From Arenibacter latericius DSM 15913 (GTDB lineage Bacteria; Bacteroidota; Bacteroidia; Flavobacteriales; Flavobacteriaceae): a stretch of 47,197 bases of DNA. The notes beneath the pieces were generated by a model. It saw nothing but the letters and a program-made list of their open reading frames with translations. It was not told the origin of the DNA and made no database searches. Below are positions 19,746-44,612 of this stretch, one piece after another (the stretch's first letter is position 1; the number at the start of each line of letters is the position of its first letter). The stretch covers positions 1 through 47,197 of the forward strand of contig NZ_AUKX01000040.1 in the NCBI RefSeq assembly GCF_000424985.1, read 5' to 3'. A program made the translations under genes and the position numbers.

Positions 19746-20447
19746 ATGATACTGAAAACAGTTGCTAATGTAGAGGAAGCATTAAAGGGCGTCCATAACG
19801 GGATGACACTGATGCTGGGCGGATTTGGGTTATGTGGTATCCCAGAAAACACCATAACGGAATTAGTGAAAATGGGAGTAAAAGACCTCACTTGTATATC
19901 CAACAATGCGGGAGTAGACGATTTTGGTTTGGGACTACTCTTACATAAAAAGCAAATTAAAAAAATGATTTCCTCCTATGTAGGAGAGAACGATGAGTTT
20001 GAACGACAAATGCTTAATGGGGAATTAGAGGTAGAATTAACCCCACAAGGAACCCTAGCAGAAAAATGTAGGGCTGCACAAGCAGGTTTCCCCGCCTTTT
20101 ATACTCCTGCGGGCTATGGCACCGAAGTGGCCGATGGAAAAGAAACCAGGGAGTTTAATGGAAAGATGTACGTGCTAGAGGAAGCCTTTAAAGCCGATTT
20201 TGCTTTTGTAAAAGCTTGGAAAGGCGATGAAGCAGGGAACCTTATTTTTAAGGGAACGGCACGTAATTTCAACCCCGTTATGTGTGGAGCAGCAAAAATT
20301 ACGGTAGCAGAAGTAGAAGAACTAGTCCCCGCAGGGGAATTAGACCCGAATCAGGTTCATGTGCCAGGAATCTTTGTACAACGTATTTTTAAAGGTTCTA
20401 ACTATGAGAAGAGAATAGAACAGCTGACGGTGCGGAAGCGAGATTAA
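19746..20447 (+). CDS. scoA: 3-oxoacid CoA-transferase subunit A
   Basis: The 233-residue alpha subunit of a class I CoA-transferase, most like succinyl-CoA:3-ketoacid (acetoacetate) CoA-transferase. The CoA-binding glycine loop is [11 protein letters not shown] (about 19-29), and GGFGxxG plus the [12 protein letters not shown] segment are standard for subunit A. With subunit B it moves CoA between succinyl-CoA and acetoacetate or a related acid in the cytoplasm. The two subunits are normally adjacent with little spacing; here a four-helix-bundle gene separates them by 456 bp. The last codons abut the left inverted repeat of that insert (20442-20461). Confidence 0.93.
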
Positions 20448-20895
20448 TCAATTTGGAAATTAGCTAATATGTTAATTTGAAAATGAATTGATATTAAATC
20501 ACTAAACTATGAGAAAGGATAAGGAAAATGTAATCGTTAAGAAAACCTTTGATTTCTCTCTCGAAATTATAGCGTATTCCGAACAGTTAAGAACCTTAAA
20601 GAAATACGAAATGGCATCCCAATTATTCCGAAGCGGAACATCAATTGGTGCCAATACTTGGGAGGCTCAAAATGGTGAAAGTAAAGCAGACTTTATCCAT
20701 AAATTTAAGCTTGCGGCTAAGGAAGCGGACGAGACTTCCTATTGGATTGAGCTTTGCAAAGCTTCTAAACATTATCCAAATCCTAAACTCATTCTTTTTT
20801 CAGAATTAAACTCAATTATTCTCATCATTTCAAAAATAATAGGCACAACCAAACGAAGTACATTGCCAAATTAAAAAATTACCAAATTTTCAAAT
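20442..20895. repeat. Inverted repeats flanking the four-helix-bundle gene
   Basis: AATTTGGAAATT (20450-20461) is complementary to AATTACCAAATT (20877-20888) at 11 of 12 positions, and a four-base GATT arm lies outside the left copy. A second pair, ATTTGAAAA (20475-20483) and TTTTCAAAT (20887-20895), is perfect. Together they bracket the inserted gene. The AT-rich content raises the chance of coincidence, but the exact bracketing is what an IVS-like cassette would show. Confidence 0.5.
20509..20874 (+). CDS. Four-helix-bundle protein (23S rRNA intervening-sequence family)
   Basis: A 121-residue protein of the S23/IVP family, first known from ORFs in intervening sequences of 23S rRNA and homologous to the Avd accessory protein of diversity-generating retroelements. 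Four amphipathic helices are visible: about 8-30, 33-60 with the diagnostic QLFRSGTSIGANTWEAQNGE, 62-87 (KADFIHKFKLAAKEADETSY) and 95-112. Only the family's fold is known; no enzyme motif exists and the molecular function is unclear. It sits between scoA and scoB on the same strand, flanked by imperfect inverted repeats, in an operon that is contiguous in most bacteria. That suggests insertion as a cassette. Confidence 0.92.
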   Translation: MRKDKENVIVKKTFDFSLEIIAYSEQLRTLKKYEMASQLFRSGTSIGANTWEAQNGESKADFIHKFKLAAKEADETSYWIELCKASKHYPNPKLILFSELNSIILIISKIIGTTKRSTLPN

Positions 20896-20903
20896 CAAGA
20901 ATT

Positions 20904-21557
20904 ATGTTGGACAAAAACGGAATTGCAAAGCGAATAGCACAAGAGATAAAAGACGGATATTATGTTAACCTAGGAATTGGTATCCCCACCTTGGTGGCCA
21001 ATTTTGTTCGAGATGATATTAGCGTAGAGTTCCAAAGCGAAAATGGCGTATTAGGAATGGGGCCTTTTCCATTTGAAGGGGAAGAGGATCCCGATATCAT
21101 TAATGCGGGTAAACAGACCATTACCACCCTTCCAGGAGCCTCATTCTTTGATTCGGCTACTAGTTTTGGAATGATTAGAGGGAAACATGTAGACCTAACT
21201 ATTTTAGGTGCTATGGAAGTGGCTGAAAACGGAGATATCGCCAATTGGAAAATTCCTGGTAAAATGGTTAAAGGAATGGGCGGAGCAATGGACCTAGTAG
21301 CCTCTGCAGAGAACATTATTGTAGCTATGATGCATACCAACCGTCAAGGGGAATCAAAATTACTTAAAAAATGCAGTCTCCCACTTACAGGTGTTAGATG
21401 CGTTAAAAAAATAGTAACCAACTTAGCGGTATTAGAGGTAGTCTCCGAAGGGTTTAAACTATTAGAAAGAGCTCCAGGAGTAAGCGTGGAAGAAATTAAG
21501 AAAGCAACCGAAGGGAATTTGATTGTTGAAGGAACTATTCCAGAGATGAAAATTTAA
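20904..21557 (+). CDS. scoB: 3-oxoacid CoA-transferase subunit B
   Basis: The 217-residue beta subunit. The active-site glutamate lies in SENGVLGMGP (about 48-57), where a covalent glutamyl-CoA intermediate forms. GIPTLVANFV (about 26-35) and LTILGAMEVAENGDIANW (about 98-115) are typical of subunit B. It starts 29 bp after the four-helix-bundle gene, so its mRNA must read through that insert unless a promoter lies within it; none with a TAnnTTTG box is visible. Confidence 0.94.
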   Translation: MLDKNGIAKRIAQEIKDGYYVNLGIGIPTLVANFVRDDISVEFQSENGVLGMGPFPFEGEEDPDIINAGKQTITTLPGASFFDSATSFGMIRGKHVDLTILGAMEVAENGDIANWKIPGKMVKGMGGAMDLVASAENIIVAMMHTNRQGESKLLKKCSLPLTGVRCVKKIVTNLAVLEVVSEGFKLLERAPGVSVEEIKKATEGNLIVEGTIPEMKI

Positions 21558-42064: not shown

Positions 42065-42817
42065 ATGCTAAAAATAAAAAACTTACACGCCAATATAGAT
42101 GGCAAGGAAATATTAAACGGAATCGATCTAACCGTAAATGCAGGAGAAGTACATGCTATAATGGGACCAAACGGTTCTGGTAAAAGTACCTTGGCATCTG
42201 TAATTGCAGGAAAGGAAGATTTTGAAGTTACAGAAGGGGAAATAACAATGGATAATGAGAGCATAATAGAAGACTCCCCTGAAGAAAGAGCTCATAAAGG
42301 TATATTTCTCTCGTTTCAATATCCTGTAGAAATTCCTGGTGTATCGGTAACCAACTTTATTAAAACCTCCATAAACGAATCTAGAAAAGCACAAGGCTTG
42401 GAAGAAATGGGAGCAAAAGATATGTTGAAGTTACTTCGTGAAAAGTCTGAACTACTAGGTATAGATAGAAAATTCTTATCTCGTTCTCTTAATGAAGGTT
42501 TTTCTGGAGGAGAGAAGAAAAGAAACGAAATATTCCAAATGGCCATGTTAGAGCCTAAATTGGCTATTTTGGATGAAACGGATTCCGGTTTGGATATTGA
42601 TGCTCTTAGAGTGGTTGCCAATGGAGTAAACACCCTAAAGACAAAAGATAACGCTGTAATTTTGATTACTCACTACCAGCGTTTATTAGAGTATATAGTA
42701 CCTGATTATGTACACGTACTTCACAATGGAAAAATTGTAAAGTCGGGTACCAAAGAATTAGCACTAGAACTAGAAGAGAAAGGATACGATTGGCTAAAGC
42801 CAGAGTCGGTAGTATAG
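42065..42817 (+). CDS. sufC: Fe-S assembly ATPase SufC
   Basis: A 250-residue ABC-type ATPase without membrane spans. Walker A GPNGSGKSTLAS (about 34-45), signature SGGEKKRNEIFQM (about 143-155) and Walker B LAILDETDSGLDID (about 164-177) are complete. ATP hydrolysis drives shape changes in SufBCD during cluster assembly. The following 478 bp, before sufD, are unusually long for this operon and contain a decayed four-helix-bundle gene. Confidence 0.97.
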   Translation: MLKIKNLHANIDGKEILNGIDLTVNAGEVHAIMGPNGSGKSTLASVIAGKEDFEVTEGEITMDNESIIEDSPEERAHKGIFLSFQYPVEIPGVSVTNFIKTSINESRKAQGLEEMGAKDMLKLLREKSELLGIDRKFLSRSLNEGFSGGEKKRNEIFQMAMLEPKLAILDETDSGLDIDALRVVANGVNTLKTKDNAVILITHYQRLLEYIVPDYVHVLHNGKIVKSGTKELALELEEKGYDWLKPESVV

Positions 42818-42828
42818 TTTAGCCCTGT

Positions 42829-43291
42829 CTAACGTCACAAGTCCAAATGTAAAAGCCGATATATCGTAGTGCATCACTAAGTTGGGAATGTCAAACAAAA
42901 TCATTTGAAGAAACAAACGCTTGAAGAAAGCAAATCGATTTCAACAAAAAGATTTAGAAAATTAACCAACAAGGGTAAAACTGAAAAGGACATCGATTTA
43001 AAAGGCAAATCAGAAGAGCTTCCATTTCTATAAGCTCCAATATTGCAGAAGGATTTGAAAGAAAGACGGATGAAGAATTTATTTACTTCCTATACTAACT
43101 AGGAGATCTACTACAGAGGTAGGGTCACCGATATAGCAAGGATTGGATTTAGAATAGGTAGATAATAAGGAGTTTTTCATATTAAAGGAACAATTAGAAA
43201 ATATATCTAAAATATTAAATGGTTTTATAGTTCATATTAGTGCATAAACAAGAAACTGTATAACATTTGACATTTAGACATTACAACTTAG
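42829..43291. repeat. Inverted repeats flanking the decayed four-helix-bundle cassette
   Basis: GTCCAAATGTAAAA (42841-42854) and TTTGACATTTAGAC (43266-43279) are complementary at 12 of 14 positions. Extended to 26 positions (42829-42854 and 43266-43291) 18 match, sharing an outer CTAA/TTAG. They bracket the pseudogene just as the pair at scoA-scoB brackets its intact relative. Confidence 0.5.
42888..43247 (+). pseudogene. Decayed four-helix-bundle (IVS-family) gene between sufC and sufD
   Basis: Read across frames, this stretch spells a member of the same family as the intact gene at 20509. Pieces are FEETNA-stop-RKQIDFNKKI-stop (42904-42957), KLTNKGKTEKDIDLK (42959-43003), KRQIRRASISISSNIAEGFE (43000-43059, the family's signature, continuing to IYFLY at 43095), and then a third frame with RRSTTEV, and VDNKEFFILKEQLENISKIL ending at TAA 43245-43247. 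At least three frameshifts and four in-frame stops (42922, 42955, 43134, 43155) disable it. It is in the + strand, as the operon is. It is a different lineage from the scoA-scoB copy, judging by the signature region. Confidence 0.85.
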
Positions 43292-43295
43292 AAAA

Positions 43296-44612
43296 ATGGA
43301 TTTAAAAGAAAAATTAGTCTCCTCTTTTTTAGCGTTTGAAAACAATGTGGACGTGGAGCATTCTGTACACGATATACGCACCGAAGCAATAAAAAAGTTT
43401 GAAGAAAAAGGATTTCCATCCCGTAAAGAGGAGGAATGGAAATACACCTCATTGAATACGTTACAAAAAGTAGATTTCAGCATATTTCCCAAAACCGAAA
43501 GCGACCTAGACTATAAGGATGTTAAGCGGTATTTTATGCATGAAATTGACACCTATAAAATTGTATTTATCGATGGCATTTATAGCTCCTATTTATCGGA
43601 AACTACGCATGATGGAGTAGATGTTTGCCTAATGAGCTCTGCACTAACCAAGCCCATGTACAAGGCAGTCATTGATGTCTACTTCAATAAAATTGCTTCT
43701 AAGGACGACTCGTTAACCAACCTAAACACTGCGTTTAGCAAGGAAGGGGCTTATATCTATATCCCTAAAAACAAGACGCCTAAAAAACCTATAGAGATAC
43801 TTCATTTTACTACTGGTACAGAAGCGGCATTGATGTCACAACCACGTAACTTGATTATTGCGGAAGAGAATACGGAATTACAAATTATAGAGCGTCATCA
43901 AAGCCTTACCTCTAACGACGTCTTTACCAATGCAGTTACGGAAATTTTTGCTGGTAAAAATGCCATTATAGACTATTATAAAGTTCAGAATGACGCCCTT
44001 ACAGCATCTTTGGTAGACAACACCTACATAGATCAAAAAGATGGTAGTACTGTAGATGTACATACCTTTTCCTTTGGTGGTAAATTAACTAGAAACAACC
44101 TTAATTACTATCAAAACGGAGAGCGTGTAAACTCCACCCTAAGAGGCGTTACCATTATAGAAGGTAAGCAGCATGTGGATCATCATACCCTAGTACATCA
44201 TATAAAACCCAATAACGAAAGTTATCAAGATTATAAGGGAATTTATGATGAGAATGCTACCGCTGTCTTTAACGGAAAGATTATAGTAGATCAAATTGCA
44301 CAAAAGACTAACGCGTTTCAGCAGAACAACAATATCTTATTAAGTGATAAGGCCACTATTAACACTAAACCTCAGCTAGAGATATTTGCTGATGATGTGA
44401 AGTGCTCCCACGGATGTACTATTGGTCAGCTAGATGAGGAGGCATTATTTTACTTACAGTCTAGAGGTATTCCTAAAAAGGAAGCCAAAGCATTGTTAAT
44501 GTATGCTTTCGCCAACAACGTTTTGTCCACGGTTCGTATTCCAGAACTTAAGACTAGAATCAATAAAATCATCGCCAAAAAATTGGGGGTTAATATTGGC
44601 TTTGACCTATAA
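43296..44612 (+). CDS. sufD: Fe-S cluster assembly protein SufD
   Basis: A 438-residue partner of SufB, with the beta-helix body and the C-terminal conserved block DDVKCSHGCTIGQLDEEALFYL (about 365-386). SufD and SufB form a heterodimer on SufC dimers; SufD is thought to help iron acquisition. Typical length. It is separated from sufC by the decayed cassette and lies 39 bp before sufS. Confidence 0.96.
   Translation: MDLKEKLVSSFLAFENNVDVEHSVHDIRTEAIKKFEEKGFPSRKEEEWKYTSLNTLQKVDFSIFPKTESDLDYKDVKRYFMHEIDTYKIVFIDGIYSSYLSETTHDGVDVCLMSSALTKPMYKAVIDVYFNKIASKDDSLTNLNTAFSKEGAYIYIPKNKTPKKPIEILHFTTGTEAALMSQPRNLIIAEENTELQIIERHQSLTSNDVFTNAVTEIFAGKNAIIDYYKVQNDALTASLVDNTYIDQKDGSTVDVHTFSFGGKLTRNNLNYYQNGERVNSTLRGVTIIEGKQHVDHHTLVHHIKPNNESYQDYKGIYDENATAVFNGKIIVDQIAQKTNAFQQNNNILLSDKATINTKPQLEIFADDVKCSHGCTIGQLDEEALFYLQSRGIPKKEAKALLMYAFANNVLSTVRIPELKTRINKIIAKKLGVNIGFDL

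Follow-up and report, generated by a model that had tools for sequence, protein, structure and literature searches.

The DNA analysed here (the window) is a stretch of 47,197 nucleotides from Arenibacter latericius DSM 15913 (contig NZ_AUKX01000040.1) in which scoA and scoB are separated by a small gene bracketed by inverted repeats. Is this insert a long-standing member of the operon, an RNA element comparable to the intervening sequences (IVS) of 23S rRNA, or a mobile cassette of another kind? A first-pass annotation, made from the sequence alone, favoured an IVS-like cassette that fills operon gaps without killing the host genes and that its repeats could fold out of the mRNA.

The insert between scoA and scoB

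The three genes share one direction on the + strand (Table 1) and the scoA-scoB gap measures 456 nt. The four-helix-bundle nature given to the middle gene is confirmed by profile matches to PF05635 (E 9.8e-20, 71.2 bits, cut-off 33.8) and to NCBIfam TIGR02436 (E 2.5e-23, 82.4 bits, cut-off 24). Its bracketing repeats, first described as 11/12 matches, are real but their length had been understated: the two arms (20451-20485 and 20861-20895) have 35 nt each with 80% complementarity, and a 13-nt core (20472-20484 and 20886-20898) reaches 92%. The 5' arm features four [AT]G in phase, reading inward with 8-nt spacing (a chain of four; the window gap is locus L031 of the survey below), while the more decayed 3' arm has just two consecutive [AT]G in phase. 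The window copy is best explained as an older member of its cassette family whose arms have partly decayed to four and two sites.

Table 1. Positions of the cassette, its host genes and the decayed second copy in the window.
Feature	Position	Strand	Remarks
scoA, 3-oxoacid CoA-transferase subunit A, left host gene	19746..20447	+	TIGR02429, E 1.9e-81
5' arm, units AATTTGGA AATTAGCT AATATGTT AATTTGAA	20450..20485	+	four in-phase [AT]G
four-helix-bundle / 23S_rRNA_IVP gene, 121 aa	20509..20874	+	PF05635 and TIGR02436 profile matches
3' arm, inverted partner of 5' arm, overlaps ORF end	20861..20895	-	80% complementary
scoB, 3-oxoacid CoA-transferase subunit B, right host gene	20904..21557	+	TIGR02428, E 1.4e-98
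second PF05635 copy, decayed, in the sufC-sufD gap	42913..43095	+	PF05635, 52.4 bits; 4 internal stops
possible arm remnant of the decayed suf copy	43262..43289	-	ATG about every 8 nt, by eye

The closest structure to the window protein is PDB 2rld (E 1.2e-19), with five chains. Six places in the genome match PF05635, five of them without stops, and another of these copies matches 2gsc (XCC0516), also with five chains. An AlphaFold single-sequence model of the window protein was set aside as poor (pLDDT 52.7). The family may be kin, as the first-pass annotation proposed, to Avd, the accessory protein of diversity-generating retroelements, a small four-helix-bundle pentamer. Nothing in the scoA-scoB gap encodes a nuclease, a transposase or a reverse transcriptase, and none of the ORFs read between 14 and 27 kb of the window stood out as a reverse transcriptase. 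The decayed copy that the first-pass annotation had seen among the suf genes is genuine; it is flanked by sufC (42065-42817) and sufD (43296-44612), both named from reading their translations. It lies 22 kb from the scoAB copy; in genome G007 a PF05635 match that is likewise broken (C16:60899) is located about 24 kb away from the scoAB copy there.

Gain, loss and exchange at the scoA-scoB site

Removal of the duplicates L125, L126, L133, L138 and L147 from 107 scoA-scoB pairs with both genes gave 102 distinct gaps; the scoB loci without scoA (L059, L183, L200) were left out. A PF05635 cassette fills 38 gaps (32 intact, 6 broken), always co-directional with the operon; another 38 gaps are empty, with at most 20 nt, and the remaining 26 have other content, namely 19 short inserts of 21-140 nt and 7 longer ones without a PF05635 gene. 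This map of empty and filled sites in relatives, proposed as a check in the first-pass annotation, speaks for the cassette, and the vertical conservation across the family that was said to contradict it is not observed, empty sites being present in Flavobacteriaceae outside Arenibacter. On a ScoA+ScoB protein tree of 98 rows (four with short ScoA pieces were dropped), a quick tree with many weak branches, filled and unfilled sites are separated by 17 changes, of which well-supported branches force 9. Two Aequorivita records have scoB DNA 91% identical, one with a TAATG stop-start overlap and the other with 507 nt at the junction. Arm remnants were recognised by eye in the gaps of Bizionia myxarmorum and Zobellia C3R17; the gap of Flagellimonas flava retains, also by eye, arms together with a fragment of the end of the gene.

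Within Arenibacter the site is occupied in 18/18 genomes (15 intact, 3 broken) by two cassette classes whose proteins are ~50% identical, class 1 in 10 genomes and class 2 in 8. The classes are scattered over the scoAB DNA tree (7 changes, 3 forced). Two closely related genomes, G012 (class 2) and G008 (class 1), whose scoB genes are 96% identical, share the outer end of the 3' arm, as if one cassette had replaced the other inside its arms. The class swapping could also reflect ordinary recombination of the scoAB region. Class-2 cassettes (L036, L048 and L035 versus L037 and L041) begin with the class-1-like unit AATTTGAAAATG, as if they had been inserted into older arms.

A gene-less insert of 83-99 nt is found in the gap of L137, L149, L163, L171, L174 and L180, from Winogradskyella, Lacinutrix, Algibacter and others; by eye it is a hairpin of the type GTCATTCCTGCG ... 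GCAGGAATGAC. Small hairpin inserts of several kinds can apparently settle in this gap. Flagellimonas amoyensis (L145) has a scoA-scoB insert of 470 nt, similar in size to the cassette and without a match to the PF05635 profile built here.

Cassettes at other sites

Of 296 Bacteroidota genomes sampled, 232 contain PF05635 matches, some of them at least 15, and 14 control genomes contain none. A relative of the class-1 cassette, 67% identical, lies between hisA and hisF (named from translations) in another genus of the family; its octamer arms score 10.5-19 against those of 14 class-1 loci, six of which reach at least 15. A second site, in genus g143 of the same family, carries the L277 cassette in some congeners, a different PF05635 cassette on the opposite strand in another (L353, profile E 2e-27), and in further congeners an arm-only hairpin or bare spacer, both seen by eye. 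Cassettes appear in operon gaps, disappear from them and replace one another there, and the filled and empty sites, the swaps within Arenibacter and the hisA-hisF relative support the earlier idea of a cassette that fills such gaps and spares the host genes.

Among 103 copies, 81 are co-directional with both neighbours, 14 are opposite to them, 6 are in convergent and 2 in divergent surroundings; these are raw counts, with neighbours called by the longest open frame.

Organisation of the arms

The arms were studied at 90 PF05635 loci, one per Bacteroidota genome (180 arms), 30 of them from the search output and 60 taken down the list, one per genome, with their arms unseen. Genomes G018, G302, G436 and that of the window were passed over, and high PF05635 scores are over-represented among the 90 loci. 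The two arms of a locus are complementary to each other with a mean score of 15.26, compared to 8.75 +- 0.20 when 5' and 3' arms are re-paired between the 90 loci (5000 permutations, highest 9.74). A score of 15 is reached at 44/90 loci versus 2/416 control genes, which have no PF05635 match within 400 nt (an earlier set of 573 ORFs included cassette neighbours); direct, rather than inverted, similarity of the arms attains it in 11%. An initial arm-pairing test over 39 protein clusters placed the arm match in the top 5% for just 17, probably because flanks started at the stop codon and part of the arms was missed; the window's cluster, with poorly placed flanks, was not outstanding (score 14 versus a mean of 13.6).

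The fixed part of the repeat unit is AG. A chain of at least four AG spaced by 7 or 8 nt is present in 108/180 arms, compared to 1.4 after shuffling. By period, 81 such chains are found at 7 nt, 28 at 8 and 17 at the harmonic 14, with at most one at any other period from 4 to 13. They read inward: the inward strand carries them at 54 of the 90 loci on each side, the outward strand at 8 and 7. Both sides have a chain at 43/90 loci, one side at 22 and neither at 25, while the control genes give 0, 4 and 412 of 416, respectively. Both arms share one period in 42 of the 43 loci with strong arrays. Of the 25 loci without a chain of four, some have a different core, while others may have decayed or be of another type. 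Plain autocorrelation over the whole flanks (82 loci) shows the 7- and 8-nt periods and their multiples as weak peaks only.

Conservation of the repeats had been set as a test in the first-pass annotation; their sequence differs between lineages and what is kept is the inverted-array architecture. The 7- or 8-nt periodicity, the usual number of five sites per arm and the arm-only copies in relatives, described below, go beyond that annotation.

Number of sites per arm

Exact AG chains in the 180 arms most often have five members (60 arms), followed by two (38), three (27), four (22) and six (19); chains of one (7 arms), seven (2) and nine or more (5) are rarer. No chain of five or more was found in shuffled arms. 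Five is the peak for both the 7-nt arrays (41 arms) and the 8-nt arrays (19 arms). The AG density is 0.083, so that by our own estimate a chance AG next to a five-site chain can account for many of the sixes. The very long runs of 5/180 arms, with 9-22 units, look like slippage.

Cassettes of the scoAB site use [AT]G instead of AG. Their 76 arms (38 cassettes) have four sites in phase at 8 nt in 16 cases and five in 8, where shuffles expect 1.7 fours and 0.1 fives; long runs are present in 2/76. At least one four-site scoAB chain (L032) falls within the end of scoA.

Arm sequence and protein lineage

Arms of different loci were compared with a match defined by a score of at least 15, using pairs without homologous neighbours (911 pairs with them were dropped) and leaving out the duplicates L093 and L095 and loci with short flanks. 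Arms match in 0.5-0.9% of pairs below 45% protein identity, in 2.8% at 45-55% and in 11% at 55-65% (n=355); the share climbs to 37% (n=38) for identities of 65-75% and to 82% (n=11) from 75% upwards. Five of these 11 top pairs belong to one cyanobacterial family. Without locus L209 the values are 39/351, 9/27 and 8/8 for the three upper classes, and with each locus used once the arms match in 9/17 pairs at 65% or more and in 1/15 at 50-55%. One pair crosses phyla: L331 of Bacteroidota and L244 of a Trichormus plasmid encode proteins 71% identical and have an arm score of 17.5, while L331 scores 11.5-14 against the arms of three sisters of L244. Arm sequence tends to follow the protein lineage at unrelated sites, and on these comparisons gene and arms behave as one evolutionary unit.

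Arm-only copies in genus g143

In genus g143 the arm of cassette L277 is also dispersed through the genome. Matches number 53 in G348, 44 in G418, 41 in G344, 34 in G203, 25 in G395 and 24 in G379, counts which include the cassette's own arms and in which one place often gives two matches; in G348 at least 24 separate places carry an arm alone. Arenibacter itself shows only a few additional matches to the arm of the scoAB cassette.

Sixty dispersed arms were taken from the best-E-value matches listed. Exact RAG chains at 8-nt spacing have five members in 50 of them, four in 6, three in 2, six in 1 and seven in 1; no RAG chain above three is found at spacings of 5, 6, 7, 9, 10 or 11. Grouping by shared flanks yields 30 groups, 26 with five sites, 3 with four and 1 with seven. 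The set is biased to good matches to a five-site query, so that shorter arrays may have escaped, but any longer ones would have shown up.

Neighbours were read for 40 places. Of 38 array places, 13 have an inverted partner within 220 nt and 25 have none (20 single, 5 with a direct neighbour). Of the 37 arrays for which both neighbours were called, 26 have co-directional neighbours, 10 have convergent ones and 1 has divergent ones. For partnerless arrays between co-directional genes, AG is on the sense strand in 6 and on the antisense strand in 13. The dispersed five-site arrays (L380-L439) are often bordered by T runs on one or both sides.

Plasmid loci in other phyla

A tblastn search of plasmids returned 29 records with PF05635 relatives, 23 of them cyanobacterial by name, and 16 loci were read (15 cyanobacterial and one from Azospirillum). 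Inverted heptamer arms were recognised by eye at 12 of the 16, including Azospirillum; in cyanobacteria 11/15 loci have them on both sides. The heptamers are GGGAGTA, GGTGACA, GGCAGAA, GGGTGTA, GGGAACA, GGGAAAA and CAGGAGT. The exceptions are L243, which has an octamer, L234, whose arms are direct and not inverted, and L235 and L237, which are indistinct. Cassettes are also housed in CRISPR-Cas operons of cyanobacterial plasmids, twice between cas6 and cas4 (L233, L234) and once between cas10 and cmr3 (L243).

Exact AG chains in 32 plasmid arms have four members in 10, three in 6, five in 6, two in 4, six in 2 and at least eight in 4. They peak at four and not at five, which slightly lowers the odds of the wider five-site-ring proposal given below.

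Proposed mode of action and alternative explanations

On balance we favour, as probable, a mobile cassette consisting of a gene and a pair of site arrays, whose protein product would form a pentameric ring that binds one array with one subunit per site. The figure of five for the ring comes from the chain counts of PDB entries 2gsc and 2rld, five each. The most frequent number of sites equals it in the 180 arms of the phylum sample and in the 60 dispersed arms, while the window arms have four and two sites and the plasmid arms peak at four. The gene and its two arms would be moved as one piece. A well-kept arm mostly presents five evenly spaced sites, AG or, in the window lineage, [AT]G, every 7 or 8 nt on the inward strand, and the array would probably be met by the ring as single-stranded nucleic acid wrapped around it, as in TRAP. 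The two inward-facing arrays would mark the cassette ends, the ring would mark or join both, and an enzyme supplied by the cell may then move or copy the cassette. The host operon would supply transcription for the cassette gene, which would explain why 81/103 copies are co-directional with both neighbours. In our own reading, the arms act at the DNA level or on either strand and the cassette needs the host transcript for expression.

An RNA element of the IVS type would have its arms pair in the transcript and RNase III cut the stem, with removal of the cassette or splitting of the scoAB message. The name of the protein family, taken from the 23S IVS, agrees with this, as do the co-directionality of all 38 distinct scoAB cassettes, the fold of the insert, better than that of 100/100 shuffles (z -2.73) and with the arms paired in the model, and the Coxiella burnetii IVS, described in the portion of PMC4990558 considered as having a 28-bp terminal stem cut by RNase III. 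A simple stem, however, has no need of a fixed AG spacing, and arm mismatches show no G-U excess, with 99 of GU type versus 137 of AC type at the 70 qualifying loci of the phylum and 208 versus 243 at all 149 loci; misaligned repeat registers could blur the test. Pairing in the sense transcript therefore does not seem to keep the arms alike, and this wobble test goes against selection for an RNA stem. Among the dispersed arms, 25 of the 38 arrays have no inverted partner within 220 nt, and the sense preference expected of RNA-level sites was not found (6 sense, 13 antisense). The folding-out from the mRNA suggested in the first-pass annotation is not supported by either count, and we hold an IVS-like RNA element to be unlikely. 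An improbable alternative of about the same rank is RNA autoregulation, where the ring would bind the 5' array in its own leader and control translation, the 3' arm would modulate this control, arm-only arrays would be regulatory sites for host genes and mobility would be incidental. It fits the position of the 5' array, which in the window shortly precedes the start codon and in the sample lies no more than 150 nt upstream of it, and the 81/103 cassettes co-directional with both neighbours, but not the 3' arrays, which are equally good on the other strand (inward chains of at least four at 54/90 loci on each side), nor the lack of sense-strand bias in dispersed arms.

Polymerase slippage would make of the arms ordinary short tandem repeats beside an unrelated gene. 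Near-perfect long runs exist in L044, L290, L278 and L234, and heptamer repeats have been attributed to slippage in a view quoted in the part of PMC4679880 consulted. Most strong arrays have varied units with a fixed AG phase and counts peaking at five; the two sides carry them in inverted orientation and they tend to track the protein lineage, so this origin is very improbable for the arms in general. Least credible of all is a vertically inherited host gene of the scoAB operon: occupation of the site in every Arenibacter genome is what it would predict, yet many relatives have empty sites, the protein tree requires repeated changes, well-supported ones included, classes are swapped within Arenibacter, 6/38 copies are broken and a relative resides in the his operon.

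Relation to known elements

The ring-and-array model of the mobile cassette has a precedent in form in TRAP, an 11-subunit ring that binds 11 triplet repeats about 5 nt apart and whose protein is unrelated to PF05635. By analogy, a ring-shaped oligomer would match the number of its AG-containing sites to that of its subunits; the PF05635 arrays differ in having five sites, at 7-8 nt, and in their location at both ends of a mobile cassette.

The 23S rRNA IVS resembles the cassette in placing a PF05635 protein between terminal inverted repeats and in size, 428 nt in Coxiella (in the part of PMC4990558 considered) versus 456 nt for the window gap. The window cassette differs from it by lying between the protein genes scoA and scoB of an operon and not in 23S rRNA, by periodic arms that are mostly five-site arrays, by the arm-only copies of one family and by the absence of a G-U signature, a comparison that relies on descriptions of IVS. 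The cassette may be filed more cautiously as a free-standing variant of IVS. If it is instead the general form, the rRNA IVS may be a special case.

To our knowledge, PF05635 proteins have no established job. Heterocystous cyanobacteria have heptanucleotide repeats known as STRR, and the tandem heptamers beside PF05635 genes on cyanobacterial plasmids are like them in form. Heptamer arrays between genes, as the PF05635 arms are, have been described as TAACTGA sets (PMC4679880) and as GGGAATC arrays in Xanthomonas, often in inverted pairs and numbering 70 in Xcc (PMC4692102). In the portions of these papers considered, the repeats are without an established protein partner; S1, Csp or Csr are proposed as binders in PMC4679880, and a term search of both found no mention of a four-helix-bundle protein. 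Unlike PF05635 arms, TAACTGA sets are not fixed at five: they comprise from two to six copies, and elsewhere as many as 43 (same portion of PMC4679880), and Nostoc is reported to have few inverted pairs and none of the studied repeats on plasmids (portion of PMC4692102 considered). Such copy numbers and the scarcity of inverted pairs in Nostoc limit the link to PF05635 arms. No paper linking PF05635 proteins with heptamer repeats was found in the open-access PMC literature. The kind is called new in the sense that no described element was found in which site arrays of counted length face inward on both sides of the gene for a ring protein.

The wider proposal, that PF05635 rings read five-site DNA or RNA arrays and that many heptamer and octamer repeats of Bacteroidota, cyanobacteria and others are ends or offspring of such cassettes, a new kind of mobile element, is tentative, and we place it somewhat below an even chance. 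Linking PF05635 proteins with heptamer repeats would give each a testable function. The cassette would offer a recognition system with a readable code, given the tendency of arm sequence to track protein lineage and, if the proposal is true, a mobile element with stoichiometry written into its terminal repeats.

The dispersed arms call to mind the REPIN/RAYT system, in which a gene is flanked by inverted short sequences that also recur across the genome, some alone and some as inverted pairs. The L277 family of g143 shares this layout, its inverted short repeats both flanking the gene and recurring elsewhere. The gene itself sets the two apart: RAYT is a Y1/HUH transposase, whereas the cassette gene encodes a small four-helix bundle with a match to PF05635 only. 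A Y1 transposase (PF01797, below E 1e-20) is encoded in 6/6 array-rich g143 genomes and in 4/11 of the others searched, a weak lead to a possible mobiliser.
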